From Morinoia aosen (Eukaryota > Arthropoda > Malacostraca > Amphipoda > Talitridae), in the NCBI GenBank assembly GCA_030386875.1, contig CM059579.1, forward strand, positions 20,432,484-20,496,483: DNA of 64,000 nucleotides, given 5' to 3'. Under the pieces are notes generated by a model. That model was not told where the DNA came from, did no database searches, and worked only from the letters and a program-made list of their open reading frames with translations. This document shows positions 3,001 to 48,606 of the stretch, piece after piece. How positions within the stretch are numbered: the stretch's first letter is position 1; every line of letters begins with the position of its first letter. The position numbers were made by a program, and so were the translations under genes.

Positions 3001-3017
3001 GTGAGGCAGAGGGAGGC
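1..3017. repeat. 32-bp minisatellite array, truncated by the left window edge
   Basis: About 94 head-to-tail copies of a 32-bp unit that begins GAGGCAGAGAGAGACAC and ends AACACAACCAGCAGT. Units differ mainly at three sites (GAGG/GGGG, AGAGAG/AGGGAG, GACAC/GGCAC). One unit near 571-600 is 30 bp. Rare variants mark internal duplications: CCATCAG occurs near 501, 1523 and 2227, and CAGCAC near 1291 and 1931. Both strands stay open for long stretches because three 32-bp units make 96 bp, so the long Cys/Leu-rich minus frame (504-2987) is a repeat artefact and not a protein. The array ends abruptly at GGGAGGC followed by unique sequence. Confidence 0.98.
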
Positions 3018-4046: not shown

Positions 4047-5733
4047 TTATTTGGTTGTATGGTATTTCTTGAAGCACTTTGGGTGGAGACCTACATTGCA
4101 CTTCTCACACTCAAACTTTGTATTGCTGTTGCACTCTCTGCACCTTCTTTGCCTCTCAATTAGCACAATCCAGTGATTCTTGCCATCAAATCTTGCAACA
4201 TCTGACAGACGGGAAGTAGATGGGCGTGACCCTGATATGCGGGGAGTACCATATGACTTGCAATAGAATAGCACTACATGCTCTATGAAATTATAGTTCG
4301 TTGTTCCAGGAAAAGATCTTTTCATGAGTGAGCAAGCATTGTTTACAGTACAGCTTAGCATGTGAGAAAAGATTGGCCACCACCACTTGCGTTGACGCAT
4401 TTTGATCCTGTAAGTACTGCAGTGTTGGTCCATTTGGTCGACAAATCCCATGAACTTATTGTAATTTTGGATGCACGCTGGTTGTGGCACATCGCAATAT
4501 TTTTTTTCTTCTTTTACCCACCTGCTGGTTGTCTTCATTTCAGTTGAATCATAGTTTGACAATAATATAACGTCCTTATTATCTCTCCATTTCATGAGCA
4601 TTACGTCACCACTCACCCTGTGGTCAGATGTACCTCTTGTAACATGTTTTGGCATCTTTTCGCTCGCAATAGGACATCTGTCGGTTCTGTTGGGACGGCA
4701 AGTACCAGAAGCTTGGATCCCCTTTTCAGCAAGATATTCCATGAGAGTAACACTCGTGAAATAGTTGTCAAAAAATAATTTGTGACCTCTGCCACTTTGA
4801 ACTTCTGCTTTCTTGATCAAATTTACCACAACATTGCCGCCCAAGCCAACATTTGGAACTTCATTATAGTCCTTCGTGCTCTGTTTGCCCATGTACAAAT
4901 CAAAAGCGTGCAGGTAACCATATTTTGAGCACAGTGCCCACATCTTGAAACCAAAGCGAATGGGTTTCCCTTTGATGAACTGTTTTGCGTAGTGCTTTCC
5001 AAAATATGGAATCATACTCTCATCAATAGATAAATATTCTTGAAGGGTTCCGTGATACTTGAAAGTATTAGAGAGATGATTGAAAAGCGGTCGTAACTTG
5101 TATGCACGATCATCTGACTGCACAGTGTTATCTGCAAAGTGTAAATTGTGCAATATGTCAAGAAATCTATCTCGCCTAATAGAATTTGCCAATATGTGAG
5201 GAACGTGATCTTCAGAGGTCCAGTACTTTTTCTTGTTTGGGACTGAGCAGATGGATGAAAGCAATAGCCCAGCAAGCAGGAGCTTTACTTCTTCTGGAGT
5301 CACATTCAGTGTCTTGTTATGTTGCAGGGCATACAAATTACTTTGTTCACAAACATGGTCGAGGAATTGCTCACTGAAAAAGAGCTCAAAGTACTTTACT
5401 GGGTCATTAGCTTGAGCAGCTTCTGGTGATGTCTCCTCAAGAATACATGCTGATGAAATTGATTCCCGGTTTTTCTTCACCCAGCGCCTCTGAGACTTCT
5501 TTTTCATCTTTATAGGAGGCTCCTCTTCATTTTCGCTGTCTTCTTCCTCAACTTGAATATGAGCAGGTGCCTCCAACACTTGCCGTTTCAGTCGTCTACT
5601 TTGAGCCTCATTTTCTTCGTCTGAACGGTCACTATCTCCATCAGACATTGCTCCAGGTTCAGGGAGACCCATGATGACATCTCCTGCCTTATCGAGATCT
5701 TCCAGTAATGCTAGGGCTTCATCGGTAGTCAGC
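4047..5733 (-). CDS. piggyBac-family transposase (PGBD3-like), last coding exon, intact
   Basis: Encodes a DDE_Tnp_1_7 (piggyBac) transposase, which cuts and pastes DNA at TTAA sites in the nucleus. From the ATG at 5672 the frame gives 541 residues with no stop. Residues 1-70 are acidic then basic. The catalytic domain has the expected aspartates: D217 in LSIDES, D302 in LFFDNYFTS, and D412 and D415 in GFVDQMDQ. The aromatic KWWWP follows at 429-433. The C-terminus is a zinc-binding cysteine-rich domain (C511, C514, C522, C525, H530, C533, H538). The coding frame continues 5' of the ATG to 5733 as LTTDEALALLEDLDKAGDV, which resembles the N-terminus of PGBD proteins, and meets a splice acceptor there. 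The true start codon is therefore in an upstream exon not located here. With all key residues intact it may be a young transposon or a domesticated gene; the sequence does not decide which. Confidence 0.93.
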
Positions 5734-5750
5734 CTGGAAGCAAAAAATGA
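5734..5750 (-). other. Predicted 3' splice site upstream of the transposase exon
   Basis: On the minus strand the sequence reads CATTTTTTGCTTCCAG immediately before the G at 5733, a pyrimidine-rich tract ending in AG. The 61 bases between this acceptor and the ATG at 5672 translate in frame as conserved-looking PGBD N-terminal sequence, in phase 1. A TGA lies further upstream in the same frame with no ATG in between, so a spliced upstream exon is needed. Confidence 0.65.
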
Positions 5751-8515
5751 CGAGTCACGAATTGGGAAAAATAGACTTTATAGCTATTTCATACTTATGT
5801 AAACACTTTAATTTATTATTTAGTTACAATTTCTTTTGATCATTGAACCATAAAAACAAGGGAAATATTATGGTGAACAAAGCAGCGTTGCTGGTATCGC
5901 AGTATCCCGTGATACTAACTAAAGAAAACATTGGGAAGAAAACTTGAGCCCGGAGTGCCGAGCGTTTTACGTATCAAACCACGAATTTGTAAGCACTGTT
6001 ATTTGAAAACTAGGGAGACTTTATTCTTTATTTTAGGTTATATGAAATGTGTACACATTAAAGATGATATTTAAATTTTATTTTATTTATTTTACGCGCC
6101 ACTGTGACGAAACTGGTTCAGAACACGTATCAATGCCCCAACATCTAAACTTAATTTGTTTTAGCTAATTTCTTGATTGTATATATGAATAATAGTCGAT
6201 TTTATTGAAGTTTTACCTATCAAACGGTAAACGGTCGGCCCTAAGTTTTCGGTTTATTTTTATTATATTTAACATGAGCTCATTAAAATTTATGATTGAT
6301 GTAAGATGTGCTGATATGATGTAGACTATTAGTATATTATAACACATTTCATGTCTTTCACAAATTTTTTATAAAGCATCTTTGTCTTTTGGCTGTTAGA
6401 AATTCAATATCGGTATTTAATGAAGATTGTTTTTTTTGGCGAAGTTTTAACAATCAATTTTAAACACTGAAGGAAATTTTCATAGTTATTTTCATAAGCG
6501 GTATAAAAAAATACACACCTAATATTCTATATCGAAAATGTACAATTAGAAATTCTCTGATAGGTACATATCTTCCAAGCCCATACTGAAATTGAAAAAT
6601 GAATTGTGAAACTACTGTAGTTCCTCAAGACAATAATGTTATGAAAAATGTTTGACAAAGATAGCTGATCAGGTACTTCGTGATTGTATTTAATGCCTTG
6701 AAGAAAACTTTTCACGCGTAAAGGGTAACAATTTATGTGAAAGCAGTGAGAACGATAGTCTTAAAATTGTTTCATTCGAAGCATGAAAAAAGTCAACTTC
6801 CTTCAATTTCACACCTTCTCTAAAAAAGCTCAGCCGAAAAATACCTTGGTACATGGGATAAACAAAACAGACGCACACTGTGTCTACAATTTATCAAGAG
6901 AGAGGAACCGTGTTCTACAGACAGTGATATCTGAGAAATAATATAGTACAGAGCATTCCTAGATCGGATTCAGCACATACTACAAACTCCATAGACGCAA
7001 CATTAACTCTTTAACGCTCCAGAGCACTTTATATGTGAAAAAAAAAACCTTAGTAGATTATATCATTGGTAAAACTTCTTTCTCAATCGGTTCTTCGAAG
7101 TTCATAGCCGAATGGTTGCTCCTTCCTCACTTTGATGTTGGTGACAAGTTGATGCCCGCACTAGTCGGTTGACGAGGGTTGGAATAACGGAAACATGAGC
7201 ACAAAAATGTTGACGTTCTCGGATGAACACGTTCACTACATTTCCGCGGTTGCTTCGGTAGGTTTGGCTGGGTTGGAACAAACAGAATTGACGAGCCATT
7301 TTCACGTATTAACATTATTACCCTTTCTAAAAAGCAAAAATACTATAATTGCATGATAATATTTAAACTTGTACGCCTAGTTTAAATAAAGGTAGTGAAA
7401 TCAATGAAATGGTAGCCATTGTTACTGGTGCGTAATTGAGGAATTTACCAAGTGATACACATACATGTATGTATCAATACGTAGGGAGCGGGGTAAGCGG
7501 GTAGTTTCTGCCGTATTGTAGCTACATCGTCAACATCAGAGGCCTGAGCATATTCCCTGTACAGCAGCTCAACAGTCATAGAAGTAGTTGGTGTATTAAT
7601 TCGTTGTATTGGTAAGGATTGAGCTGCTCAGGGTATTTTAGTGAAGGTGGACAATTTCTAAAACTGATGAGCTCATCAGACGGTCTCTAAAACTAGATTG
7701 CTAGTTGATTGAAGCAAACATAGCAAAACTGACCAATCCACTAAGAAACTTTCAAGATTTGTTCCATACCAGCTGCTCACTCCAGTTCACGAAATAAAAA
7801 TATTAAATCTGGCTGCACAGGTCGTGTAATCTACCCCATGTATGTCAAATAAATAGCACTGGCGCCTTCGCTTATTGAACATTGAAACTTTAACGAATAA
7901 AACATCTGTAGAACATGCTTTACGCCGATTATTGACCTTCCTGTGTTGAAGAACCCATAATCGTATTTCTGTGCTGTGTTTACAGGCTATTTTTCCGAAT
8001 CGTGATAATAAATATTATGACAGACTAAGTTCCGTTTATTTATCAGCCTCAAAACTGACGCTCCGATATTTGCTCATAATCCGCGATGTTTAGTAAATTT
8101 TGGAAAAAATGCGATTATATCCCAAGTCCAAAAACTCGGTCACTAGAATTTTTGTTTCAAGTTAGAAAGCCTTACTTGGAGAAATCCTAAGTACCAACGC
8201 CTAGAGTGCACCAAACGTCTTTATCGAATAACGTCTTAAAGATTGAACATCAAGAGCCATGTCTCTACTGACATGTTCTAGAGCCATCAAAAAATTAAAT
8301 TTCGCAATTTCATTTTTTGAGTAACGTTCATTGAGCTCAAATTTGACACGGAAATGCAGGTCAGGCGGTGTCTGAAGCTAGACAAATAAATTAGTCTCGC
8401 CAGACACTGGACGAAGCCCGCACGTCACCTGGACGGCGGAGGCCAGGCAGCGCGCAGGGTCCTGCTCTGATGTGGTTCGGTCGCAGCCAACGGTGTTGGT
8501 GGACTACACATAGCT
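5751..8515. other. AT-rich unique sequence, no gene seen
   Basis: About 2.8 kb of AT-rich DNA. The first part presumably holds the intron and the upstream exon or promoter of the transposase gene, but I could not identify a donor site or ATG with confidence. TTAACTCTTTAACGC near 7003 resembles a TTAA transposon end, but no partner was found. The open frames here are short, overlap on both strands and lack domains. Confidence 0.5.
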
Positions 8516-17100: not shown

Positions 17101-17921
17101 ATGCGTCACCGTTAAAGCTCACACGTCACCGTTATGGCTCACGCATCACCGTTAGGCTCACGCATCACCGTTATGGCTCACGCATCACCGTTATGGCTCA
17201 CGCGTCACCGTTATGGCTCACGCGTCACCGTTATGGCTCACGCGTCACCGTTATGGCTCACGCGTCACCGTTATGGCTCACGCGTCACCGTTATGGCTCA
17301 CGCGTCACCGTTAGGGCTCACGGGTCACCGTTAGGGCTTACGGGTCACCGTTAGGGCTCACGCGTCACCGTTAGGGCTCATGCGTCACCGTTAGGGCTCA
17401 CGCGTCACCGTTAGGGCTCACGCGTCACCGTTAGGGTTCACGCGTCACCGTTATGGCTCACGCGTCACCGTTAGGGTTCACGCGTCACCGTTATGGCTCA
17501 CGCATCACCGTTATGGCTCACGCATCACCGTTATGGCTCACGCACCACCGTTATGGCTCACGCATCACCGTTATGGCTCACGCATCACCGTTTTGGCTCA
17601 CGCATCACCGTTATGGCTCACGCATCACCGTTATGGCTCACGCACCACCGTTATGGCTCACGCATCACCGTTATGGCTCACGCATCACCGTTGTGGCTCA
17701 GGCATCACCGTTGTGGCTCATGCGTCACCCTTGTGGCTCACGCATCACCGTTATGGCTCATGCGTCACGGTTATGGCTCAAGCGTCACCGTTATGGCTCA
17801 GGCATCACCGTCGTGGCTCAGGCATCACCGTTGGGCTCAGGCATCACCGTTGTGGCTCAGGCATCACCGTTGTGGCTCAGGCATCACCGTTGTGGCTCAG
17901 GCATCACTGTTACGACTCACG
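17101..17921. repeat. 20-bp minisatellite (CACCGTTATGGCTCACGCGT type)
   Basis: About 41 copies of a 20-bp unit. Blocks of subtypes are visible: TTATGG with CGCGT (17190-17310), TTAGGG (17311-17450), TTATGG with CGCAT (17480-17690) and TTGTGG with GGCAT (17691-17900). Copies at the right edge decay (CACTGTTACGACTCA). The open frames here (Met-Ala-His-Ala-Ser-Pro-Leu repeats) are artefacts. Confidence 0.97.
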
Positions 17922-18300
17922 TAAAACCATTATTACTGGCATTCTTTACTGTTAAGACTGCCACAGCTCACAGTCATAGCTTATATTTGCTTCCGTTACG
18001 TGCACTACGCATTGTTGTGACCGCAGTGCCTCACAGTTATGTATGACGGTCACTTGTATCCGTTCCATTAGATATTTCTTACAACGGCTCCCATTGTCAA
18101 TCCTTACCGTTATGGTGGTCATCCGTCACCCTTACAATGGACATTCATAGCCGTTATTACCGTCATTCACAGCCGTTATCACCGTCATATACACCCGCCA
18201 TGACCGTCAGTAATTTTTGTCAAGGCTGTCATTTGAAACCGTTGTGCCGCCATAGATGCCCGTTTTAGCAGCCATGTCGTTCCCGTTACGACAGCCATAT
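17922..18300. repeat. Decayed minisatellite bridge
   Basis: Between the 20-bp and 22-bp arrays, the words CCGTTA, CCGTCAT and GTCATTC recur at irregular spacing, for example CCGTTATTACCGTCATTC then CCGTTATCACCGTCAT. This looks like an older, degraded part of the same tandem region. Confidence 0.7.
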
Positions 18301-18597
18301 CACGTCTCTTACTGAAGTAATGCATGTCCTTTACGGCAGTGATGCATGTCCTTTACGGCAGTGATGCAAGCCCGTTGCGGCAGTGATGCAAACCCGTTAC
18401 GGCAGTGATGCAAATCCGTTACTGCATTGGTGCAAACCCGTTACGGCAGTGATGCAAACCCGGTACGGCAGTGATGCAATTCGGTACGGCAGTGATGCAA
18501 ACCCGGTACGGCAGTGATGCATGACCGTTTCGGCAGTGATGCATGACCGTTACGGCAGTGATGCATGACCGTTACGGCAGTGATGCATGCGCGTTAG
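18301..18597. repeat. 22-bp minisatellite (GTGATGCAAACCCGTTACGG type)
   Basis: About 13 copies with the invariant block ACGGCAGTGATGCA and variable CCGTT/CCGGT, followed by decayed copies. It shares the CCGTTA core with the arrays on either side. Confidence 0.95.
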
Positions 18598-18689
18598 GAC
18601 GGTCATTCTTACTCGTTACATCATTCATTCATGATCTTTAAAGAGGTCATTGATAACTGTTATGGCTATAGTCCAAATCTGATGCTACT

Positions 18690-19133
18690 GTTATCCGTAA
18701 CTGTTATGGCCGTTCTTCGTAATCGTTATGGCCGTTCTTCGTAATCGTTGTGGCCGTTCTTCGTAATCGTTATGGCCGTTCTTCGTAATCGTTATGGCCG
18801 TTCTTCGTAATCGTTATGGCCGTTCTTCGTAATCGTTATGGCCGTTCTTCGTAACAGTTATGGCCGACATCTTTAACCGTTATGGCCGACATCTGTAACC
18901 GTTATGGCCGACATCTGTAACCGTTATGGCCGACATCTGTAACCGTTATGGCCGTTCTCTGTAACCGTTATGGCCGTTCTCTGTAACCGTTATGACCGTT
19001 CTTTATAACCGTTATGGCCATCATCCGTAGCCGTTATGGCCGTCATCTGTAACCGTTACGGCCGTCATCCGTAACCGTTACGGTCGTCATCCGTAACCGT
19101 TACGGTCGTCATCCGTAACCGTTATGGCCTACT
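18690..19133. repeat. 22-bp minisatellite (CGTTATGGCCGTTCTTCG type)
   Basis: About 20 copies ordered as three blocks: TTCTTCGTAATCGTTATGG, then ACATCTGTAACCGTTATGG, then TCATCCGTAACCGTTACGG. The block order suggests successive local expansions. The core CCGTTATGGC is shared with the 17.1-kb array. Confidence 0.95.
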
Positions 19134-24297: not shown

Positions 24298-24774
24298 CCT
24301 GAAAGTCGATTCTTCGACCATCTCCACCAAATAGGCGAATAATTATGGAACAATTATTCGTCTATAACGATAATTCATGTAATTATGCCATTAATTTCAA
24401 CCTGCTGATGTGAAAAAAGAAGGTAATTCCTATTGGCACGAAGCAGCAGAGAGCAGCAGGTGTTCCAGGTCGCCTTTGTGTAAACACGCGATTTTCGCTC
24501 TCCACAGAAACCGAAGGCGCCAACAGCTGAGGGCATCTTTCCTCAGACACTATTCATATCAAACGATTTAAAACTATGTTCTTTGCATACTCATAAAGTA
24601 TAAGGCGTGTGTTCCATTCAAGCACATGAACAGACTCGTCGGTAATCTCGGCGCTCATGAGTGATGTGAAATGCATTTTGAGTATGTAAACTAAATACAA
24701 CACTTATTCCCAACACAATCAGTCTCCTTCCAACCACAACACTACCATTATTTGTCTCCAACCATTATTTGAAA

Positions 24775-24937
24775 TAAGAAAGAAGGCGAAATGAAAGAAA
24801 GGCCGTAAAGTAAAAAATTCAACCTCTCGAGAGTAGTTTGTTGATGAGGCCGAGTGCACATGGCCGGCCCGTATCACAGATACGCTCATCACATACTTTC
24901 GGCTGTTCGGACAGACGGACGCGGCTCTTATTATAGT
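24775..24937. repeat. Satellite-flank-related segment, copy 1
   Basis: Contains AAGGCGAAATGAAAG, GTTGATGAGGCCGAGTGCAC, TATCACAGATACGCTCATC, ACTTTCGGCTG and GACGGACGCGGCTC. The first half matches sequence at the left edge of the 13.3-kb satellite (25657-25721). The second half matches sequence just beyond its right edge (39248-39340). It therefore looks like a related locus without the array. Confidence 0.8.
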
Positions 24938-25108
24938 GTAGATTTACCTCATGTTTCCCACTAGATATGTACTATTTAAGAATTTAAAAATTCAAATCTC
25001 AACCCAACCACAGACTCTCGTGAGGCGTCACATCGGTTATTATTATTACTCGATCGCTTTTATTCGATTCATACCTTAAACACCTTATTTACATATGGAT
25101 TAGTAAAC
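24938..25108. other. AT-rich unique sequence
   Basis: No gene or repeat seen. Confidence 0.5.
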
Positions 25109-25262
25109 TGAATATTGGTAGCGAACTCCGTAGAGTTATCATTTGAAATGGAAATAGTAACTTGAATATTGGCTACAAATTCCGTAGAGTTTTCATTTAC
25201 CTAGAAATAATAAGTTGAATACAGGTTTCAAACTCCGCAGAGTTTTTTCAATTATCTAGTCC
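25109..25262. repeat. 54-bp tandem triplicate
   Basis: Three diverged copies with period 53-54 bp. Landmarks are GAATATTGG at 25110 and 25164 with GAATACAGG at 25217, each followed by AACTCCGTAGAGTT or a close variant. Confidence 0.8.
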
Positions 25263-25656
25263 AATATATTCTATAGTTTGTCTGGCTTCGTTGATATATT
25301 TTCTAGAACCGGGAATTTTTTTACCGCAATGTTTAATAAAGTAAAGGTCGACAATGATAATGCTAAAAGAATCCTAATAACTCTAATTCCAACATTTTGT
25401 TTATTAATATCTATATTCGTATTACGTACCTAAAACAATTAGTGTATTGAATTATAATTGAAATCGATATGTCGAAAATAAGCTGAGCAGAATTGTCTTG
25501 CACTTAATGAATACTTCACACGACAATTAAATTAAAGAATTTGATTTAACTTAAATTTATACTCTGCTTTATTCACCATCGTGCATTGGCGTCATTATGA
25601 GAGCTAACCGAAGCCTCAAGTCGCAGCTTTCAACTATATTTTTACTCCACTTTCAG
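25263..25656. other. AT-rich unique sequence
   Basis: No gene or repeat seen. Confidence 0.5.
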
Positions 25657-25721
25657 ACAAGAAAGAATGCGAAATGAAATGAAGGCATAATTATTATATT
25701 TCTCTAGAGTTGATGAGGCCT
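25657..25721. repeat. Satellite-flank-related segment, copy 2 (left edge of the giant array)
   Basis: Contains AAGAATGCGAAATGAAATG and GTTGATGAGGCCTAGTGCAC, matching copy 1 at 24775-24860. The similarity runs directly into the first GTGCACACGG monomer of the satellite, so the array begins inside this segment. Confidence 0.8.
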
Positions 25722-28700
25722 AGTGCACACGGTCCGTCAAAATATATAATATTGAGTGCACACGGCCTGTCAATATATATAATATTGAGTGCACACGGTC
25801 CGTCAAAATATATAATATTGAGTGCACGCGGCCTGTCAATATATATAATAACGAGTGCACACGGTCCGTCAAAATATATAATATTGAGTGCACGCGGCCT
25901 GTCAATATATATAATAACGAGTGCACACGGTCCGTCAAAATATATAATATTGAGTGCACGCGGCCTGTCAATATATATAATAACGAGTGCACACGGTCCG
26001 TCAAAATATATAATATTGAGTGCACGCGGCCTGTCAATATATATAATAACGAGTGCACACGGTCCGTCAAAATATATAATATTGAGTGCACGCGGCCTGT
26101 CAATATATATAATAACGAGTGCACACGGTCCGTCAAAATATATAATATTGAGTGCACGCGGCCTGTCAATATATATAATAACGAGTGCACACGGTCCGTC
26201 AAAATATATAATATTGAGTGCACGCGGCCTGTCAATATATATAATATTGAGTGCACACGGCCTGTCAATATATATAATATTGAGTGCACGCGGCCTGTCA
26301 ATATATATAATAACGAGTGCACACGGTTCGTCAAAATATATAATATTGAGTGCACACGGCCTGTCAATATATATAATAACGAGTGCACACGGTCCGTCAA
26401 AATATATAATATTGAGTGCACGCGGCCTGTCAATATATATAATAACGAGTGCACACGGTCCGTCAAAATATATAATATTGAGTGCACGCGGCCTGTCAAT
26501 ATATATAATAACGAGTGCACACGGTCCGTCAAAATATATAATATTGAGTGCACGCGGCCTGTCAATATATATAATAACGAGTGCACACGGTCCGTCAAAA
26601 TATATAATATTGAGTGCACGCGGCCTGTCAATATATATAATAACGAGTGCACACGGTCCGTCAAAATATATAATATTGAGTGCACGCGGCCTGTCAATAT
26701 ATATAATAACGAGTGCACACGGTCCGTCAAAATATATAATATTGAGTGCACGCGGCCTGTCAATATATATAATAACGAGTGCACACGGTCCGTCAAAATA
26801 TATAATATTGAGTGCACGCGGCCTGTCAATATATATAATAACGAGTGCACACGGTCCGTCAAAATATATAATATTGAGTGCACGCGGCCTGTCAATATAT
26901 ATAATAACGAGTGCACACGGTCCGTCAAAATATATAATAACGAGTGCACACGGTCCGTCAAAATATATAATATTGAGTGCACACGGCCTGTCAATATATA
27001 TAATAACGAGTGCACGCGGCCTGTCAATATATATAATAACGAGTGCACGCGGCCTGTCAATATATATAATAACGAGTGCACGCGGCCTGTCAATATATAT
27101 AATAACGAGTGCACACGGCCTGTCAATATATATAATAACGAGTGCACACGGTCCGTCAAAATATATAATAACGAGTGCACACGGTCCGTCAAAATATATA
27201 ATAACGAGTGCACGCGGCCTGTCAATATATATAATATTGAGTGCACGCGGTCCGTCAAAATATATAATATTGAGTGCACGCGGCCTGTCAATATATATAA
27301 TAACGAGTGCACACGGTCCGTCAAAATATATAATAACGAGTGCACACGGTCCGTCAAAATATATAATAACGAGTGCACGCGGCCTGTCAATATATATAAT
27401 ATTGAGTGCACGCGGTCCGTCAAAATATATAATATTGAGTGCACGCGGCCTGTCAATATATATAATAACGAGTGCACACGGTCCGTCAAAATATATAATA
27501 TTGAGTGCACGCGGCCTGTCAATATATATAATAACGAGTGCACACGGTTCGTCAAAATATATAATATTGAGTGCACGCGGCCTGTCAATATATATAATAT
27601 TGAGTGCACGCGGTCCGTCAAAATATATAATATTGAGTGCACGCGGCCTGTCAATATATATAATAACGAGTGCACACGGTCCGTCAAAATATATAATATT
27701 GAGTGCACGCGGCCTGTCAATATATATAATATTGAGTGCACGCGGTCCGTCAAAATATATAATATTGAGTGCACGCGGCCTGTCAATATATATAATAACG
27801 AGTGCACGCGGCCTGTCAATATATATAATAACGAGTGCACACGGTCCGTCAAAATATATAATATTGAGTGCACGCGGCCTGTCAATATATATAATAACGA
27901 GTGCACACGGTTCGTCAAAATATATAATATTGAGTGCACGCGGCCTGTCAATATATATAATAACGAGTGCACACGGTTCGTCAAAATATATAATATTGAG
28001 TGCACGCGGCCTGTCAATATATATAATAACGAGTGCACACGGTCCGTCAAAATATATAATATTGAGTGCACGCGGCCTGTCAATATATATAATATTGAGT
28101 GCACGCGGCCTGTCAATATATATAATATTGAGTGCACGCGGCCTGTCAATATATATAATATTGAGTGCACACGGCCTGTCAAAATATATAATATTGAGTG
28201 CACGCGGCCTGTCAATATATATAATAACGAGTGCACACGGTCCGTCAAAATATATAATATTGAGTGCACACGGCCTGTCAATATATATAATAACGAGTGC
28301 ACACGGTTCGTCAAAATATATAATATTGAGTGCACGCGGCCTGTCAATATATATAATAACGAGTGCACACGGTCCGTCAAAATATATAATATTGAGTGCA
28401 CGCGGCCTGTCAATATATATAATAACGAGTGCACACGGTCCGTCAAAATATATAATATTGAGTGCACACGGCCTGTCAAAATATATAATATTGAGTGCAC
28501 GCGGCCTGTCAATATATATAATATTGAGTGCACGCGGCCTGTCAATATATATAATAACGAGTGCACACGGCCTGTCAATATATATAATATTGAGTGCACG
28601 CGGCCTGTCAATATATATAATAACGAGTGCACACGGCCTGTCAATATATATAATATTGAGTGCACGCGGCCTGTCAATATATATAATAACGAGTGCACAC

Positions 28701-31700
28701 GGTCCGTCAAAATATATAATATTGAGTGCACGCGGCCTGTCAATATATATAATAACGAGTGCACACGGTCCGTCAAAATATATAATATTGAGTGCACGCG
28801 GCCTGTCAATATATATAATAACGAGTGCACACGGTCCGTCAAAATATATAATATTGAGTGCACGCGGCCTGTCAATATATATAATAACGAGTGCACACGG
28901 TCCGTCAAAATATATAATATTGAGTGCACGCGGCCTGTCAATATATATAATAACGAGTGCACACGGTTCGTCAAAATATATAATATTGAGTGCACGCGGC
29001 CTGTCAATATATATAATAACGAGTGCACAAGGTCCGTCAAAATATATAATATTGAGTGCACGCGGCCTGTCAATATATATAATAACGAGTGCACACGGTT
29101 CGTCAAAATATATAATATTGAGTGCACGCGGCCTGTCAATATATATAATAACGAGTGCACACGGTCCGTCAAAATATATAATATTGAGTGCACGCGGCCT
29201 GTCAATATATATAATAACGAGTGCACACGGTCCGTCAAAATATATAATATTGAGTGCACGCGGCCTGTCAATATATATAATAACGAGTGCACACGGTTCG
29301 TCAAAATATATAATATTGAGTGCACGCGGCCTGTCAATATATATAATAACGAGTGCACACGGTTCGTCAAAATATATAATATTGAGTGCACGCGGCCTGT
29401 CAATATATATAATAACGAGTGCACAAGGTCCGTCAAAATATATAATATTGAGTGCACGCGGCCTGTCAATATATATAATAACGAGTGCACACGGTTCGTC
29501 AAAATATATAATATTGAGTGCACGCGGCCTGTCAATATATATAATAACGAGTGCACACGGTTCGTCAAAATATATAATATTGAGTGCACGCGGCCTGTCA
29601 ATATATATAATAACGAGTGCACACGGTTCGTCAAAATATATAATATTGAGTGCACGCGGCCTGTCAATATATATAATAACGAGTGCACACGGTTCGTCAA
29701 AATATATAATATTGAGTGCACGCGGCCTGTCAATATATATAATAACGAGTGCACACGGTTCGTCAAAATATATAATATTGAGTGCACGCGGCCTGTCAAT
29801 ATATATAATAACGAGTGCACACGGTTCGTCAAAATATATAATATTGAGTGCACGCGGCCTGTCAATATATATAATAACGAGTGCACACGGTTCGTCAAAA
29901 TATATAATATTGAGTGCACGCGGCCTGTCAATATATATAATAACGAGTGCACACGGTTCGTCAAAATATATAATATTGAGTGCACGCGGCCTGTCAATAT
30001 ATATAATAACGAGTGCACACGGTCCGTCAAAATATATAATATTGAGTGCACGCGGCCTGTCAATATATATAATAACGAGTGCACACGGTCCGTCAAAATA
30101 TATAATATTGAGTGCACGCGGCCTGTCAATATATATAATAACGAGTGCACACGGTCCGTCAAAATATATAATATTGAGTGCACGCGGCCTGTCAATATAT
30201 ATAATAACGAGTGCACACGGTTCGTCAAAATATATAATATTGAGTGCACGCGGCCTGTCAATATATATAATAACGAGTGCACACGGTCCGTCAAAATATA
30301 TAATATTGAGTGCACGCGGCCTGTCAATATATATAATAACGAGTGCACACGGTCCGTCAAAATATATAATATTGAGTGCACGCGGCCTGTCAATATATAT
30401 AATAACGAGTGCACACGGTTCGTCAAAATATATAATATTGAGTGCACGCGGCCTGTCAATATATATAATAACGAGTGCACACGGTTCGTCAAAATATATA
30501 ATATTGAGTGCACGCGGCCTGTCAATATATATAATAACGAGTGCACACGGTTCGTCAAAATATATAATATTGAGTGCACGCGGCCTGTCAATATATATAA
30601 TAACGAGTGCACACGGTTCGTCAAAATATATAATATTGAGTGCACGCGGCCTGTCAATATATATAATAACGAGTGCACAAGGTCCGTCAAAATATATAAT
30701 ATTGAGTGCACGCGGCCTGTCAATATATATAATAACGAGTGCACACGGTTCGTCAAAATATATAATATTGAGTGCACGCGGCCTGTCAATATATATAATA
30801 ACGAGTGCACACGGTTCGTCAAAATATATAATATTGAGTGCACGCGGCCTGTCAATATATATAATAACGAGTGCACACGGTTCGTCAAAATATATAATAT
30901 TGAGTGCACGCGGCCTGTCAATATATATAATAACGAGTGCACACGGTCCGTCAAAATATATAATATTGAGTGCACGCGGCCTGTCAATATATATAATAAC
31001 GAGTGCACACGGTCCGTCAAAATATATAATATTGAGTGCACGCGGCCTGTCAATATATATAATAACGAGTGCACACGGTCCGTCAAAATATATAATATTG
31101 AGTGCACGCGGCCTGTCAATATATATAATAACGAGTGCACACGGTTCGTCAAAATATATAATATTGAGTGCACGCGGCCTGTCAATATATATAATAACGA
31201 GTGCACAAGGTCCGTCAAAATATATAATATTGAGTGCACGCGGCCTGTCAATATATATAATAACGAGTGCACACGGTCCGTCAAAATATATAATATTGAG
31301 TGCACGCGGCCTGTCAATATATATAATAACGAGTGCACAAGGTCCGTCAAAATATATAATATTGAGTGCACGCGGCCTGTCAATATATATAATAACGAGT
31401 GCACACGGTCCGTCAAAATATATAATATTGAGTGCACGCGGCCTGTCAATATATATAATAACGAGTGCACACGGTCCGTCAAAATATATAATATTGAGTG
31501 CACGCGGCCTGTCAATATATATAATAACGAGTGCACACGGTCCGTCAAAATATATAATATTGAGTGCACGCGGCCTGTCAATATATATAATAACGAGTGC
31601 ACACGGTCCGTCAAAATATATAATATTGAGTGCACGCGGCCTGTCAATATATATAATAACGAGTGCACACGGTCCGTCAAAATATATAATATTGAGTGCA

Positions 31701-34700
31701 CGCGGCCTGTCAATATATATAATAACGAGTGCACAAGGTCCGTCAAAATATATAATATTGAGTGCACGCGGCCTGTCAATATATATAATAACGAGTGCAC
31801 ACGGTCCGTCAAAATATATAATATTGAGTGCACGCGGCCTGTCAATATATATAATAACGAGTGCACACGGTCCGTCAAAATATATAATATTGAGTGCACG
31901 CGGCCTGTCAATATATATAATAACGAGTGCACACGGTCCGTCAAAATATATAATATTGAGTGCACGCGGCCTGTCAATATATATAATAACGAGTGCACAA
32001 GGTCCGTCAAAATATATAATATTGAGTGCACGCGGCCTGTCAATATATATAATAACGAGTGCACACGGTCCGTCAAAATATATAATATTGAGTGCACGCG
32101 GCCTGTCAATATATATAATAACGAGTGCACACGGTCCGTCAAAATATATAATATTGAGTGCACGCGGCCTGTCAATATATATAATAACGAGTGCACACGG
32201 TCCGTCAAAATATATAATATTGAGTGCACGCGGCCTGTCAATATATATAATAACGAGTGCACACGGTCCGTCAAAATATATAATATTGAGTGCACGCGGC
32301 CTGTCAATATATATAATAACGAGTGCACACGGTCCGTCAAAATATATAATATTGAGTGCACGCGGCCTGTCAATATATATAATATTGAGTGCACACGGTC
32401 CGTCAAAATATATAATATTGAGTGCACGCGGCCTGTCAATATAAATAATAACGAGTGCACACGGTCCGTCAAAATATATAATATTGAGTGCACGCGGCCT
32501 GTCAATATATATAATAACGAGTGCACACGGTCCGTCAAAATATATAATATTGAGTGCACGCGGCCTGTCAATATATATAATAACGAGTGCACAAGGTCCG
32601 TCAAAATATATAATATTGAGTGCACGCGGCCTGTCAATATATATAATAACGAGTGCACACGGTCCGTCAAAATATATAATATTGAGTGCACGCGGCCTGT
32701 CAATATATATAATAACGAGTGCACACGGTCCGTCAAAATATATAATATTGAGTGCACGCGGCCTGTCAATATATATAATAACGAGTGCACAAGGTCCGTC
32801 AAAATATATAATATTGAGTGCACGCGGCCTGTCAATATATATAATAACGAGTGCACACGGTTCGTCAAAATATATAATATTGAGTGCACGCGGCCTGTCA
32901 ATATATAAAATAACGAGTGCACACGGTCCGTCAAAATATATAATATTGAGTGCACGCGGCCTGTCAATATATATAATAACGAGTGCACACGGTCCGTCAA
33001 AATATATAATATTGAGTGCACGCGGCCTGTCAATATATATAATAACGAGTGCACACGGTCCGTCAAAATATATAATATTGAGTGCACACGGTCCGTCAAT
33101 ATATATAATAACGAGTGCACACGGTCCGTCAAAATATATAATATTGAGTGCACGCGGCCTGTCAATATATATAATAACGAGTGCACACGGTCCGTCAAAA
33201 TATATAATATTGAGTGCACACGGTCCGTCAATATATATAATAACGAGTGCACACGGTCCGTCAAAATATATAATATTGAGTGCACGCGGCCTGTCAATAT
33301 ATATAATAACGAGTGCACACGGTCCGTCAAAATATATAATATTGAGTGCACGCGGCCTGTCAATATATATAATAACGAGTGCACACGGTCCGTCAAAATA
33401 TATAATATTGAGTGCACGCGGCCTGTCAATATATATAATAACGAGTGCACACGGTCCGTCAAAATATATAATATTGAGTGCACGCGGCCTGTCAATATAT
33501 ATAATAACGAGTGCACACGGTTCGTCAAAATATATAATATTGAGTGCACGCGGCCTGTCAATATATATAATAACGAGTGCACACGGTCCGTCAAAATATA
33601 TAATATTGAGTGCACGCGGCCTGTCAATATATATAATAACGAGTGCACACGGTCCGTCAAAATATATAATATTGAGTGCACGCGGCCTGTCAATATATAT
33701 AATAACGAGTGCACACGGTCCGTCAAAATATATAATATTGAGTGCACGCGGCCTGTCAATATATATAATAACGAGTGCACACGGTTCGTCAAAATATATA
33801 ATATTGAGTGCACGCGGCCTGTCAATATATATAATAACGAGTGCACACGGTCCGTCAAAATATATAATATTGAGTGCACGCGGCCTGTCAATATATATAA
33901 TAACGAGTGCACACGGTCCGTCAAAATATATAATATTGAGTGCACGCGGCCTGTCAATATATATAATAACGAGTGCACACGGTTCGTCAAAATATATAAT
34001 ATTGAGTGCACGCGGCCTGTCAATATATATAATAACGAGTGCACACGGTCCGTCAAAATATATAATATTGAGTGCACGCGGCCTGTCAATATATATAATA
34101 ACGAGTGCACAAGGTCCGTCAAAATATATAATATTGAGTGCACGCGGCCTGTCAATATATATAATAACGAGTGCACACGGTCCGTCAAAATATATAATAT
34201 TGAGTGCACGCGGCCTGTCAATATATATAATAACGAGTGCACAAGGTCCGTCAAAATATATAATATTGAGTGCACGCGGCCTGTCAATATATATAATATT
34301 GAGTGCACACGGTCCGTCAAAATATATAATATTGAGTGCACGCGGCCTGTCAATATATATAATAACGAGTGCACACGGTCCGTCAAAATATATAATATTG
34401 AGTGCACGCGGCCTGTCAATATATATAATAACGAGTGCACACGGTCCGTCAAAATATATAATATTGAGTGCACGCGGCCTGTCAATATATATAATAACGA
34501 GTGCACACGGTCCGTCAAAATATATAATATTGAGTGCACGCGGCCTGTCAATATATATAATATTGAGTGCACACGGTCCGTCAAAATATATAATATTGAG
34601 TGCACGCGGCCTGTCAATATATATAATAACGAGTGCACACGGTCCGTCAAAATATATAATATTGAGTGCACGCGGCCTGTCAATATATATAATAACGAGT

Positions 34701-37700
34701 GCACACGGTCCGTCAAAATATATAATATTGAGTGCACGCGGCCTGTCAATATATATAATAACGAGTGCACACGGTCCGTCAAAATATATAATATTGAGTG
34801 CACGCGGCCTGTCAATATATATAATAACGAGTGCACAAGGTCCGTCAAAATATATAATATTGAGTGCACGCGGCCTGTCAATATATATAATAACGAGTGC
34901 ACACGGTTCGTCAAAATATATAATATTGAGTGCACGCGGCCTGTCAATATATATAATAACGAGTGCACACGGTTCGTCAAAATATATAATATTGAGTGCA
35001 CGCGGCCTGTCAATATATATAATAACGAGTGCACACGGTTCGTCAAAATATATAATATTGAGTGCACGCGGCCTGTCAATATATATAATAACGAGTGCAC
35101 ACGGTTCGTCAAAATATATAATATTGAGTGCACGCGGCCTGTCAATATATATAATAACGAGTGCACAAGGTCCGTCAAAATATATAATATTGAGTGCACG
35201 CGGCCTGTCAATATATATAATAACGAGTGCACACGGTCCGTCAAAATATATAATATTGAGTGCACGCGGCCTGTCAATATATATAATAACGAGTGCACAC
35301 GGTCCGTCAAAATATATAATATTGAGTGCACGCGGCCTGTCAATATATATAATAACGAGTGCACACGGTCCGTCAAAATATATAATATTGAGTGCACGCG
35401 GCCTGTCAATATATATAATAACGAGTGCACACGGTTCGTCAAAATATATAATATTGAGTGCACGCGGCCTGTCAATATATATAATAACGAGTGCACACGG
35501 TTCGTCAAAATATATAATATTGAGTGCACGCGGCCTGTCAATATATATAATAACGAGTGCACACGGTCCGTCAAAATATATAATATTGAGTGCACGCGGC
35601 CTGTCAATATATATAATAACGAGTGCACAAGGTCCGTCAAAATATATAATATTGAGTGCACGCGGCCTGTCAATATATATAATAACGAGTGCACAAGGTC
35701 CGTCAAAATATATAATATTGAGTGCACGCGGCCTGTCAATATATATAATAACGAGTGCACACGGTCCGTCAAAATATATAATATTGAGTGCACGCGGCCT
35801 GTCAATATATATAATAACGAGTGCACACGGTTCGTCAAAATATATAATATTGAGTGCACGCGGCCTGTCAATATATATAATAACGAGTGCACACGGTCCG
35901 TCAAAATATATAATATTGAGTGCACGCGGCCTGTCAATATATATAATAACGAGTGCACACGGTCCGTCAAAATATATAATATTGAGTGCACGCGGCCTGT
36001 CAATATATATAATAACGAGTGCACACGGTCCGTCAAAATATATAATATTGAGTGCACGCGGCCTGTCAATATATATAATAACGAGTGCACAAGGTCCGTC
36101 AAAATATATAATATTGAGTGCACGCGGCCTGTCAATATATATAATAACGAGTGCACACGGTCCGTCAAAATATATAATATTGAGTGCACGCGGCCTGTCA
36201 ATATATATAATAACGAGTGCACACGGTCCGTCAAAATATATAATATTGAGTGCACGCGGCCTGTCAATATATATAATAACGAGTGCACACGGTCCGTCAA
36301 AATATATAATATTGAGTGCACGCGGCCTGTCAATATATATAATAACGAGTGCACACGGTCCGTCAAAATATATAATATTGAGTGCACGCGGCCTGTCAAT
36401 ATATATAATAACGAGTGCACACGGTCCGTCAAAATATATAATATTGAGTGCACGCGGCCTGTCAATATATATAATAACGAGTGCACAAGGTCCGTCAAAA
36501 TATATAATATTGAGTGCACGCGGCCTGTCAATATATATAATAACGAGTGCACACGGTCCGTCAAAATATATAATATTGAGTGCACGCGGCCTGTCAATAT
36601 ATATAATAACGAGTGCACAAGGTCCGTCAAAATATATAATATTGAGTGCACGCGGCCTGTCAATATATATAATAACGAGTGCACACGGTCCGTCAAAATA
36701 TATAATATTGAGTGCACGCGGCCTGTCAATATATATAATAACGAGTGCACACGGTCCGTCAAAATATATAATATTGAGTGCACGCGGCCTGTCAATATAT
36801 ATAATAACGAGTGCACACGGTCCGTCAAAATATATAATATTGAGTGCACGCGGCCTGTCAATATATATAATAACGAGTGCACACGGTCCGTCAAAATATA
36901 TAATATTGAGTGCACGCGGCCTGTCAATATATATAATAACGAGTGCACAAGGTCCGTCAAAATATATAATATTGAGTGCACGCGGCCTGTCAATATATAT
37001 AATAACGAGTGCACAAGGTCCGTCAAAATATATAATATTGAGTGCACGCGGCCTGTCAATATATATAATAACGAGTGCACACGGTCCGTCAAAATATATA
37101 ATATTGAGTGCACGCGGCCTGTCAATATATATAATAACGAGTGCACACGGTCCGTCAAAATATATAATATTGAGTGCACGCGGCCTGTCAATATATATAA
37201 TAACGAGTGCACACGGTCCGTCAAAATATATAATATTGAGTGCACGCGGCCTGTCAATATATATAATAACGAGTGCACAAGGTCCGTCAAAATATATAAT
37301 ATTGAGTGCACGCGGCCTGTCAATATATATAATAACGAGTGCACAAGGTCCGTCAAAATATATAATATTGAGTGCACGCGGCCTGTCAATATATATAATA
37401 ACGAGTGCACACGGTCCGTCAAAATATATAATATTGAGTGCACGCGGCCTGTCAATATATATAATAACGAGTGCACACGGTCCGTCAAAATATATAATAT
37501 TGAGTGCACGCGGCCTGTCAATATATATAATAACGAGTGCACAAGGTCCGTCAAAATATATAATATTGAGTGCACGCGGCCTGTCAATATATATAATAAC
37601 GAGTGCACAAGGTCCGTCAAAATATATAATATTGAGTGCACGCGGCCTGTCAATATATATAATAACGAGTGCACACGGTCCGTCAAAATATATAATATTG

Positions 37701-39048
37701 AGTGCACGCGGCCTGTCAATATATATAATAACGAGTGCACACGGTCCGTCAAAATATATAATATTGAGTGCACGCGGCCTGTCAATATATATAATAACGA
37801 GTGCACACGGTTCGTCAAAATATATAATATTGAGTGCACGCGGCCTGTCAATATATATAATAACGAGTGCACAAGGTCCGTCAAAATATATAATATTGAG
37901 TGCACGCGGCCTGTCAATATATATAATAACGAGTGCACACGGTCCGTCAAAATATATAATATTGAGTGCACGCGGCCTGTCAATATATATAATAACGAGT
38001 GCACAAGGTCCGTCAAAATATATAATATTGAGTGCACGCGGCCTGTCAATATATATAATAACGAGTGCACACGGTCCGTCAAAATATATAATATTGAGTG
38101 CACGCGGCCTGTCAATATATATAATAACGAGTGCACACGGTCCGTCAAAATATATAATATTGAGTGCACGCGGCCTGTCAATATATATAATAACGAGTGC
38201 ACAAGGTCCGTCAAAATATATAATATTGAGTGCACGCGGCCTGTCAATATATATAATAACGAGTGCACAAGGTCCGTCAAAATATATAATATTGAGTGCA
38301 CGCGGCCTGTCAATATATATAATAACGAGTGCACACGGTCCGTCAAAATATATAATATTGAGTGCACGCGGCCTGTCAATATATATAATAACGAGTGCAC
38401 ACGGTCCGTCAAAATATATAATATTGAGTGCACGCGGCCTGTCAATATATATAATAACGAGTGCACACGGTTCGTCAAAATATATAATATTGAGTGCACG
38501 CGGCCTGTCAATATATATAATAACGAGTGCACACGGTTCGTCAAAATATATAATATTGAGTGCACGCGGCCTGTCAATATATATAATAACGAGTGCACAC
38601 GGTCCGTCAAAATATATAATATTGAGTGCACGCGGCCTGTCAATATATATAATAACGAGTGCACACGGTTCGTCAAAATATATAATATTGAGTGCACGCG
38701 GCCTGTCAATATATATAATAACGAGTGCACAAGGTCCGTCAAAATATATAATATTGAGTGCACGCGGCCTGTCAATATATATAATAACGAGTGCACACGG
38801 TCCGTCAAAAATATATAATAACGAGTGCACACGGCCTGTCAAAAATATATAATAACGAGTGCACACGGTCCGTCAAAGATGTATAATAACGAGTGCACAA
38901 GGTCCGTCAAAAATGTATAATAACGAGTGCACACGGTCCGTCAAAAATGTATATTAACGAGTGCACACGGTCCGTCAAAAATATATAATAACGAGTGCAC
39001 ACGGTCCGTCAAAAATATTTAATAACGAGTGCACACGGTCCGTCAAAA
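25722..39048. repeat. Giant dimeric satellite, 33-bp monomers in 66-bp higher-order units
   Basis: About 404 tandem monomers. Type A starts GTGCACACGGTCCGTC and ends TATATAATATTGA; type B starts GTGCACGCGGCCTGTC and ends TATATAATAACGA. Over most of the array A and B alternate strictly, giving a 66-bp higher-order unit. Recurrent variants are TTCG for TCCG and ACAAGG for ACACGG in type A. The alternation is irregular in about 26230-28700. The last 250 bp consist of 34-bp A-like monomers with a longer A run. Every monomer contains the palindrome GTGCAC and a TATATAAT stretch. Since 33 is a multiple of 3, frames of thousands of codons are open on both strands; these are artefacts. No spacers are present, so it is not a CRISPR-like array. 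Confidence 0.99.
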
Positions 39049-39247
39049 AAATGACAGGATTAGATATAGGACCAACTGAACTTCAAAATGGCTTTCCCAT
39101 GATTTATCATGCTACTCTATTGCTTTCCAATACTTTCCCAAGTCTCAACCGCTGATATTCTATTCAACATAATCTAACCTACCAATACAAGTGATATTTA
39201 TTCCGACTCCCGATTTGCTGGGTTAATATACCGAAAATAATTGTGGA
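39049..39247. other. Unique sequence right of the satellite
   Basis: No gene or repeat seen between the last degenerate monomer and the flank-related segment. Confidence 0.5.
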
Positions 39248-39340
39248 GTTGATGAAGCTTGTATCACAGATACGCTCATCTCACACTTTCGGCTGGTGGG
39301 TGTGACACACGGACGGACGGACGCGGCTCCTTTTATAATA
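39248..39340. repeat. Satellite-flank-related segment, copy 3 (right of the giant array)
   Basis: Contains GTTGATGAAGCTTGTATC, ACAGATACGCTCATC, ACTTTCGGCTGG and GGACGGACGCGGCTCC, matching copy 1 at 24841-24932. It lacks the GAGTGCACATGGCC part present in copy 1. Confidence 0.8.
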
Positions 39341-39764
39341 ATGATGAACAGATTACAGAGCTAACAAGTACTACATAGTATCACTGAACTGGGTCGTTGG
39401 AGTATGGATCGAGGTGTCGTGAGAGCAGTAAAGATGCTTTGAACAAAAAAATAAAATTTATAAACAACAGAACGCTAACTTCAAAAACCCACAGCTACAC
39501 CGGCACATAAATCAAAGTTGTAACACCAAAATGAAGGGAAATTCTCGCCGAGAGTAGCGCTTGCCAGCAGCATGCATGGACATCACAAGCGCAGAGCAGC
39601 GAGCAGGTGGGTGTCATGCGCCGCTCGGCCACAAACTATAAACAAAATGAGGAATGGATTTACCTTTAGATTTTTAAGGTATTTTGACATGATGCATTTC
39701 TCACTAAACAAGTCCTTACAACGTCAATATTCGATTTTTTCATTGCAAATTTAATCTCAAATCT
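39341..39764. other. Unique sequence
   Basis: No gene, RNA or repeat seen. Confidence 0.5.
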
Positions 39765-40317: not shown

Positions 40318-41065
40318 CGAGGCCTGTCGAAAAAGTATCCGACCTTTGGCCAGAAAAAATACTTCAACAACCTGACGGGGTTGGGACCCTAATCCCCTTC
40401 AAAGTAGGCTCCTTGTGCTTCCACACACTTAGCCCACCGATCCTTCCACTGCCGGAAACACCTCTGGAAGTCTTCTTTTGGAATGGTGTTCAGCTCTGTC
40501 GTCGCGTTCCGCATTATCTCTTCTCTACTCTCAAAACGGGATCCTTTCAGTGGTGTCTTCAATTTTGGAAACAACCAGAAGTCGCAAGGAGCCAGGTCTG
40601 GAGAGTAGGGAGGTTGGCGAACGGTCGTAATTCCATGTTTGGCCAAGAAATTGCGGATCAAATGGGATGAATGTGCGGGCGCGTTGTCGTGATGCAAGTG
40701 CCAGTTGTTCGCAGTCCACATGTCTGGTCTTTTGCGCCGAACTGCATCACGAAGTCGCCGGAGAACATCCTGATAGTACTCCTTTGTCACTGTTTGTCCT
40801 TCCGGTGCGTATTCGTGATGCACAATTCCACGGACATCAAAGAAAACAGTCAGCATCGAAGGAGTCAAACAGGCAATGCGACGATGGAGCTGAACACCAT
40901 TCTAAAAAAAAACTACCAGAGGTGTTTCCAGCAGTGGAAGGATCGGTGGGCTAAGTGTGTGCAAGCACAAGGGGCATACTTTGAAGGGGATTAGGGTCCC
41001 AACTCCGACAGGTATTCGAAATATTTTTTCTGGCCAAAGGTCGGATACTTTTTAGACAGGCCTCG
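40318..41065. mobile_element. Palindromic mariner remnant with TA target duplication
   Basis: Starts CGAGGCCTGTCGAAAAAG and ends with the inverted counterpart, flanked by TA on both sides (40316-40317 and 41066-41067), the target of Tc1/mariner elements. The right part (about 40870-41065) is an inverted, diverged copy of the left 200 bases, including the codons for the transposase C-terminus. The element thus has two 3' ends facing each other and has lost its 5' half. Confidence 0.88.
40389..40868 (-). pseudogene. mariner transposase, C-terminal half only
   Basis: The 159-codon open frame encodes the catalytic C-terminal half of a mariner-family transposase. It carries HHDNAPAHSS (D61) and YSPDLAPCDFWLFPKLK (D96), spaced by 34 residues as in the D,D34D motif. 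The frame opens at a TTG codon at the palindrome junction, not an ATG. The N-terminal DNA-binding region and the first catalytic aspartate are absent, replaced by an inverted copy of the 3' end. It is therefore inactive. The remaining frame has no stop, suggesting fairly recent damage. Confidence 0.92.
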
Positions 41066-47792: not shown

Positions 47793-48360
47793 CCCAGCGC
47801 GATGCAAAATTGCACCACGGATCCCGCAATGATTCAGCGCGATGCAAAACTGTATCACAAATTCTGTAATGTTATAGCGTGATGCAAAACTGTGTCACAG
47901 ATTGTGTAATGTTATAGCGCGATGCAAAACTGTGTCACAGATTGTGTAATGTTATAGCGCGATGCAAAACTGTATCACAAATTGTGTAATGTTATAGCGC
48001 GATGCAAAACTGTATCACAAATTGTGTAATGTTATAGCGCGATGCAAAACTGTGTCACAGATTGTGTAATGTTATAGCGCGATGCAAAACTGTGTCACAG
48101 ATTGTGTAATGTTATAGCGCGATGCAAAACTGTATCACAGATTGTGTAATGTTATAGCGCGATGCAAAACTGTGTCACTGATCGTGCAATGTTTCAGCGC
48201 GATGCAAAACTGTATCACAAATTGTGTAATGTTATAGCGCGATGCGAAACTGTGTCACTGATCGTGCAATGTTTCAGCGCGATGCAAAACTGTATCACAA
48301 ATTGTGTAATGTTATAGCGCGATGCGAAATAGTATCATAGATCGTGTATTGTTCCACTGT
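47793..48360. repeat. 40-bp minisatellite
   Basis: About 14 copies of a 40-bp unit that starts GCGCGATGCAAAACTG and ends TGTGTAATGTTATA. Two sites vary (TATCACAA/TGTCACAG). The first and last copies are diverged. Confidence 0.97.
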
Positions 48361-48399
48361 GGTGCTAAATTACTCCATGGAGCGTGTGATACTTCGGTA
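48361..48399. repeat. Decayed 40-bp unit joining two arrays
   Basis: GGTGCTAAATTACTCCATGG and GTGTGATACTTCGGTA follow the spacing of the 40-bp unit, and the 17-bp array starts at its end. Confidence 0.6.
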
Positions 48400-48606
48400 C
48401 AATGTCACGAGTACAATGTCGTTACGAGTACAATGTCGTCACGAGTACAATGTCGTCACGAGTACAATGTCGTCACGAGTACAATGTCGTCACGAGTACA
48501 AAGTCGTCACGAGTACAATGACGTCACAAGTACAATGACGTCGCGAGTACAATGACGTCACGAGTACAATGACGTCACAAGTACCATGTCGTTACGAATA
48601 CAATGA
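48400..48606. repeat. 17-bp minisatellite (ACGAGTACAATGTCGTC)
   Basis: About 12 copies, first with ATGTCGTC then with ATGACGTC, abutting the 40-bp array. Confidence 0.96.

Follow-up and report, generated by a model that had tools for sequence, protein, structure and literature searches.

This locus raises the question of what a 13-kb array of short tandem repeats is and how it came to be. It lies in a stretch of 64,000 nucleotides of the Morinoia aosen genome (C24:20432484-20496483; the window), and the original prediction had described it as a satellite of about 404 monomers of 33 bp that could be a heterochromatic or centromere-related repeat or a local expansion. Tandem Repeats Finder placed the array at 25722-39046 with a period of 66, 201.8 copies and 98% matches, and cutting at AGTGCAC (at most one mismatch) gave 403 complete monomers from 25722 to about 39046, so that the predicted repeat was confirmed. 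Of these, 396 monomers of 33 bp, mostly in 66-bp A/B dimers, occupy 25722..38789 (minus strand). The last seven, from 38790, measure 34 bp; they form the right edge of the array (38790..39027, minus strand) and are presumed to be of the ancestral type. A final partial unit of about 22 bp follows at 39028..39049 (minus strand), corresponding to the second half of the seed duplication found in ordinary copies of the element described below. With 19 distinct sequences among its 403 monomers, the array has the long, homogenised character of a satellite.

The A and B forms differ at six positions and not at about seven, as had been predicted, and two further A variants occur 41 and 29 times. GGTTC was read in 41 A-type monomers, which therefore carry no AvaII site, and gaps would be expected in the AvaII ladder. 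The predicted alternation of the two forms is real, with 374 of 402 neighbours alternating, whereas 2000 shuffles gave 202 on average and never more than 239; the longest uninterrupted run comprises 171 monomers. It can be called strict only for about 10 kb, because breaks and recombinants disturb the first ~3 kb and the 34-bp right edge. The 28 breaks comprise 20 in the first ~90 monomers, four at monomers 223-228 (the only ones between monomers 89 and 398) and four in the 34-bp edge, and A/B recombinant monomers are concentrated in the left part of the array (first ~3 kb). The 66-bp dimer is nevertheless the unit now repeating, as the original prediction had it, with near-strict alternation, and no period above two monomers stood out within the window array.

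Long open frames run across the array on both strands and in several frames, which is the expectation for a stop-free 33-bp period, and a coding role was rejected for this reason. Neither the 66-bp dimer nor either end of the window copy of the element folded better than shuffles (z values of -0.73, 0.38, and -0.63). We consider it very unlikely that the length of the array or its regular alternation is an assembly artefact: the window contains no N, and the array is irregular on the left, mixes variants and has its own kind of unit at the right edge, features that simple collapse or duplication would not readily produce.

The window holds several further repeats and transposon remains. Another array, of 3 kb with a 32-bp unit (CAGAGAGAGACACAACACAACCAGCAGTGAGG), occupies positions 1-3015 and runs to the left end of the window. 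Two adjacent arrays at 17103-17921 and 18283-19129 have units of 20 bp and 22 bp that share CCGTTATGGC or CCGTTA-like cores, and a 40-bp array (about 14 copies) and a 17-bp array (about 12 copies) lie some 50 bp apart at 47796-48605. A 576-aa open frame at 4047-5777 (minus strand) matches DDE_Tnp_1_7 over nearly the whole profile and represents a piggyBac-type transposase. A 170-aa open fragment at 40389-40901 (minus strand) matches Transposase_1 and DDE_3, and we take it to be the remnant of a mariner-type transposase.

A query of 201 bp of the array was searched against the genome (1.99 Gb, 29 contigs) and returned 39 matches. Ten of these belong to two short arrays of relatives, one on C10 and one at 15.2 Mb on C24, and the other 29 to 28 isolated places, with matches of about 35 to 94 bp. 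No second array of the 33-bp form was returned for this query; the two short arrays of relatives lie inside Helitron copies. Among the long matches the highest identity was 89%, and within one of the short arrays (L002) a single 33-bp match reached 97%. Because the search skips common words and omitted the window's own array from its listing, the absence of a second 33-bp array is weak evidence. Both short arrays (L002 and L004) and all 28 isolated places were fetched for comparison of the flanks (n=30). Both flanks of the window array recurred around the repeat at 23 of the 30 places, namely L002, L004, 15 of the 20 loci L009-L028 and six of the eight loci L029-L036. Among the remaining seven, four matched the right-flank query over at least about 290 bp (L010, L012, L026 and L030), two of them with a trace of the left flank, and three had shorter flank pieces only (L023, L027 and L031). 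Recurrence of both flanks around the same repeat elsewhere means that the repeat belongs to a dispersed mobile element. Copies bearing arrays are likely to be over-represented in this set, since the monomer was the query that found them.

The ends of this element were compared among 18 copies, 17 fetched complete copies and that of the window. Five of the 22 loci scanned (L010, L012, L023, L026 and L027) were excluded from these counts on account of 3' ends that were not homologous, and L029-L036 entered the flank counts but not the terminus counts. Terminal motifs and the flanking A and T common to the 17 complete copies delimit a whole non-autonomous Helitron copy of 14,296 bp around the array, at 25049..39344 on the minus strand, with its 5' TC at 39344 and its 3' CGAG at 25049 (mostly CTAG in the family). 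On the minus strand, the 5' end of the family reads mostly TC(TA/AC)TATTATAAAAGGAGCC and the 3' end mostly ...CGATCTAG. The 5' TC was preceded by A in 17 of the 18 copies as scripted, the remaining copy (L024) conforming once a 3-nt insert is permitted; a T followed the 3' end in 15 copies and a C in the other three; and the 3' end was CTRR in 14, that of the window being CGAG. The surroundings of L028 are a tandem repeat with a 31-bp unit, and its two flanks join, by eye, as one unit with no duplication and one mismatch; this repeat contains TATATA, so that a shorter unit with a 2-bp duplication of TA would be a conceivable reading. The family inserts between A and T, and does so without target-site duplication at the one site checked, L028. 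A Tc1/mariner-type duplication of a TA target was rejected for the family because the 5'-flanking dinucleotides are TA, AA or CA (AC in L024) and the 3'-flanking ones vary.

According to the excerpted text of PMC4067079, canonical Helitrons have 5' TC and 3' CTRR ends, and Helentrons or HINEs (DINE-like) have inverted repeats near both ends. The TC and CTRR ends, the insertion between A and T and the clean site at L028 are marks of a Helitron as given there. When the first 200 nt of each of 17 copies were compared with its last 200 nt, the longest exact inverted matches were 7-8 nt, as in shuffles; with no end-to-end inverted repeats above that level, MITE and foldback elements were rejected, and the lack of inverted repeats linking the ends also speaks against a Helentron, which was likewise set aside. 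Seventeen copies were also examined for a hairpin before the 3' end, and over their last 45 nt 30-200 of 200 shuffles folded equally well. Canonical Helitrons carry a palindrome of 16-20 nt about 11 bp from the 3' end. In several copies of the family an A/T-rich 5-bp stem starts about 54 nt from the end. Judged by sequence, the ends are of the canonical Helitron type, A-TC...CTRR-T on the minus strand (hyphens mark the element boundaries), with the 3' hairpin missing in the family.

Inside the element, the array is bounded by two arms shared with the other copies. The 3' arm (25049..25721, minus strand) is 80-84% identical over 586-709 bp to the 17 complete copies and in the window contains about three imperfect repeats of ~53 bp around a short palindrome. 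The 5' arm (39050..39344, minus strand) is 72-91% identical to the same copies and carries the palindrome GTATCACAGATAC near 39260. Fourteen of the 17 complete fetched copies are 989-1058 bp long; L002 and L004 are longer through their arrays, and L011 through nested elements. The stretch between the arms measures 53-55 bp in 12 of the 17, made up of one 34-bp unit and a partial unit of ~22 bp, and 88 bp in L009. Family copies between such ends, inserted between A and T, thus hold about 1.7 units, 17 (L004), 22 (L002) or, in the window, 403. Very probably, then, the array represents the internal repeat of a non-autonomous Helitron family, overgrown in this one copy, and the suggestion of a local expansion was borne out. 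The alternative of a heterochromatic or centromeric satellite found no support, given an array inside a Helitron whose other copies have about 1.7 to 22 units. Higher-order dimers do resemble those of some centromeric satellites in general, but the limited search found a single such locus, of 13 kb, inside a transposon on a 94-Mb contig and with other transposase remnants in the window, and a functional satellite of this kind seems extremely improbable.

Relatives of the family provide a second view of the unit. A sibling mini-Helitron copy at 24768..24942 (minus strand), delimited by BLAST pieces and a 5' terminus after A, has its 5' TC at 24942 and an approximate left end, and contains the core of the repeat unit once. 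Its 5' end is of the style TCTACACTATAATAAGAGCC preceded by A, and it lies about 100 bp from the array-bearing element. In L011 (C8:38721000-38724300), two 34-bp units of one element harbour nested sibling mini-Helitrons, one of 196 bp and one of 224 bp. Both siblings end in GTGGACTAG and were inserted after the same CGTCAAAAA; one divides its unit precisely between A and T, and at the other four surplus A remain. The A/T-rich 34-bp unit may be a favoured target for insertion. Both nested siblings carry the core of the 34-bp unit, and their similarity to L017 and L018 covers the 5' ends, resumes at the unit core and stops 24 and 17 nt before the siblings' 3' ends. One of them has a 3' hairpin (7 of 200 shuffles as good) and the other a weak stem (38 of 200). 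We infer that the family has lost a terminator of the sibling type and that its 3' end now lies at a different terminator, several hundred bp beyond.

These observations bear on whether an independent satellite was captured by a Helitron. Helitrons do capture foreign DNA, and the excerpts of PMC8268682 describe oyster Helitron-associated repeats some of which also occur as standalone satellites. Here, however, the 34-bp unit is present once and in part in ordinary copies, and its core recurs in both nested siblings of L011 and in the sibling at 24768-24942 of the window, so that the unit seems to be the element's own; the limited search with the 201-bp query showed no standalone array. Capture is in our judgement highly improbable, and we retain the reading of an internal repeat that has overgrown.

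As to mobilisation, Helitron_like_N (PF14214) has at least 150 scored matches in the genome, among 289 candidates. The contig C21 holds 35 of the 150 listed matches (hand count), where about 9 would be expected by length (121 of 1991 Mb), and several of these are equal-scoring and clustered, for example at 88-95 Mb. Ten short and four longer Rep loci were examined for ends. Only one of the ten short loci, L049 (C1:15.96 Mb), had a 5' motif of the family or its siblings: its terminus, TCTATACTATAATAAGAGCC after an A, matches the 5' end of the window element at 81% identity over 100 bp and precedes an 839-aa Helitron_like_N frame and a 322-aa PIF1 frame, with one stop between them (the two frames were profile-searched apart and not joined). 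No family-type 3' end was seen in this 9.9-kb locus, the 5' end alone being shared, and L049 is therefore a relative and not a proven partner. Presumably, the family was mobilised by the Rep/helicase of autonomous Helitrons with similar ends.

When the array grew can be approached by comparing monomers with one another and with the arms. Over all pairs, monomers differed by a mean of 2.29 edits within L002, 1.76 within L004 and 4.06 between the two; the mean distance to window monomers was 5.02 for L002 and 5.64 for L004. Within the window the mean was 3.4 edits, a value raised by the difference between A and B. Monomers are hence more alike within L002 or L004 than between these two or to the window, which argues that the three arrays grew or were homogenised separately. 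The 34-bp units at the right edge of the window array resemble the usual unit of the family, two of the seven being identical to the commonest L002 unit and to units in several other copies. Three edits separate the A form from this 34-bp unit and five separate the B form, and both were for this reason taken as derived. The arms of the window copy have a K2P distance of 0.092 from the family majority, the second highest of the 18 copies, and its 396 33-bp monomers have two private substitutions. Old arms set against so few private substitutions point to growth or homogenisation of the array at a time much more recent than the insertion.

The main rival to growth in place is that the array was made during Helitron transposition, by rolling-circle replication of the internal repeat or re-insertion of circles, and arrived at its present length. 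Helitrons are thought to replicate by rolling circle, and this process is discussed as a source of tandem arrays in the excerpted part of PMC8268682. Divergence among the monomers is, however, far lower than that of the arms of the window copy, and the seven units at the right edge have kept 34 bp, which fits growth in place. The same picture could arise by homogenisation after arrival, and the low divergence within the array could likewise reflect continuing homogenisation rather than late growth. All in all, we regard an origin during transposition as unlikely and favour growth of the array within an inserted copy.

Such growth may be pictured as a series of steps. The seed, a 34-bp unit followed by a ~22-bp partial unit, would constitute a short direct repeat, from which further units could arise by replication slippage or unequal exchange. 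Most copies seen would have undergone no expansion and at least three would have expanded separately. In the window copy, one A would have been lost, shortening the unit from 34 to 33 bp, and the variants A and B would have arisen and then come to alternate. Long after insertion of the element, exchange in 66-bp steps would have carried the A/B dimer across about 10 kb, such that slippage or unequal exchange would have acted on monomers first and on 66-bp dimers later. The left ~3 kb and the 34-bp right edge would retain older states. No host function is needed to explain the array.

Satellites that derive from Helitron repeats have been published before, so the window array joins a known kind. 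In Drosophila, the central tandem repeats of DINEs, such as DINE-TR1, have given rise to satellites (Dias et al, 2015, as cited in excerpts of PMC6947457 and PMC9957191), and dmgsat-7 is a satellite from Helitron-type tandem repeats (PMC9957191, in excerpt). According to these excerpts, DINE-TR1 resembles the window array in that a non-autonomous Helitron-type element carries central tandem repeats which expand into satellites. DINEs, however, belong to the Helentrons and the repeats of DINE-TR1 measure ~150 bp, compared with ends of the canonical Helitron type (A-TC...CTRR-T) and a 33/34-bp unit here. Unlike the DINE-TR1 satellites as described there, the window array remains enclosed by the two ends of a single element and is organised around a 66-bp dimer. 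For Crassostrea gigas, too, the excerpts of PMC8268682 describe Helitron-associated satellites; as here, they are central repeats of dispersed Helitrons, mostly forming short arrays at scattered places in the genome. Among the rows listed, the Helitron-labelled monomers are at least 134 bp long, as against 33/34 bp. In contrast to the oyster case so described, one copy here has reached 403 units and most copies seen have about 1.7. In Drosophila virilis, internal repeats of the non-autonomous DNA element Tetris are, as in the present case, the building blocks of kb-size arrays (the TIR-220 satellite; PMC4079207, in excerpt), but Tetris is a foldback element with terminal inverted repeats and thus of another transposon class. 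A higher-order repeat inside a Helitron was named in no title among the literature matches listed, and we claim no priority; a literature text search with three monomer strings gave no match, which says little.

The origins of satellites are often inferred from finished arrays. In this amphipod, one dispersed family contains a likely seed together with intermediates and a homogenised higher-order array, so that the order of events becomes readable and can be tested against flanking divergence. A satellite seen in a window of sequence may, as a caution, be the interior of a transposon. It is possible, and we suggest it tentatively, that one family preserves the whole birth of a satellite, from a seed of 1.7 units through independent short arrays, the loss of a base and the rise of two monomers to the takeover by a 66-bp dimer, all framed by the ends of the element. 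If this is true, its seed duplication would make the Helitron family a repeated source of new satellites.
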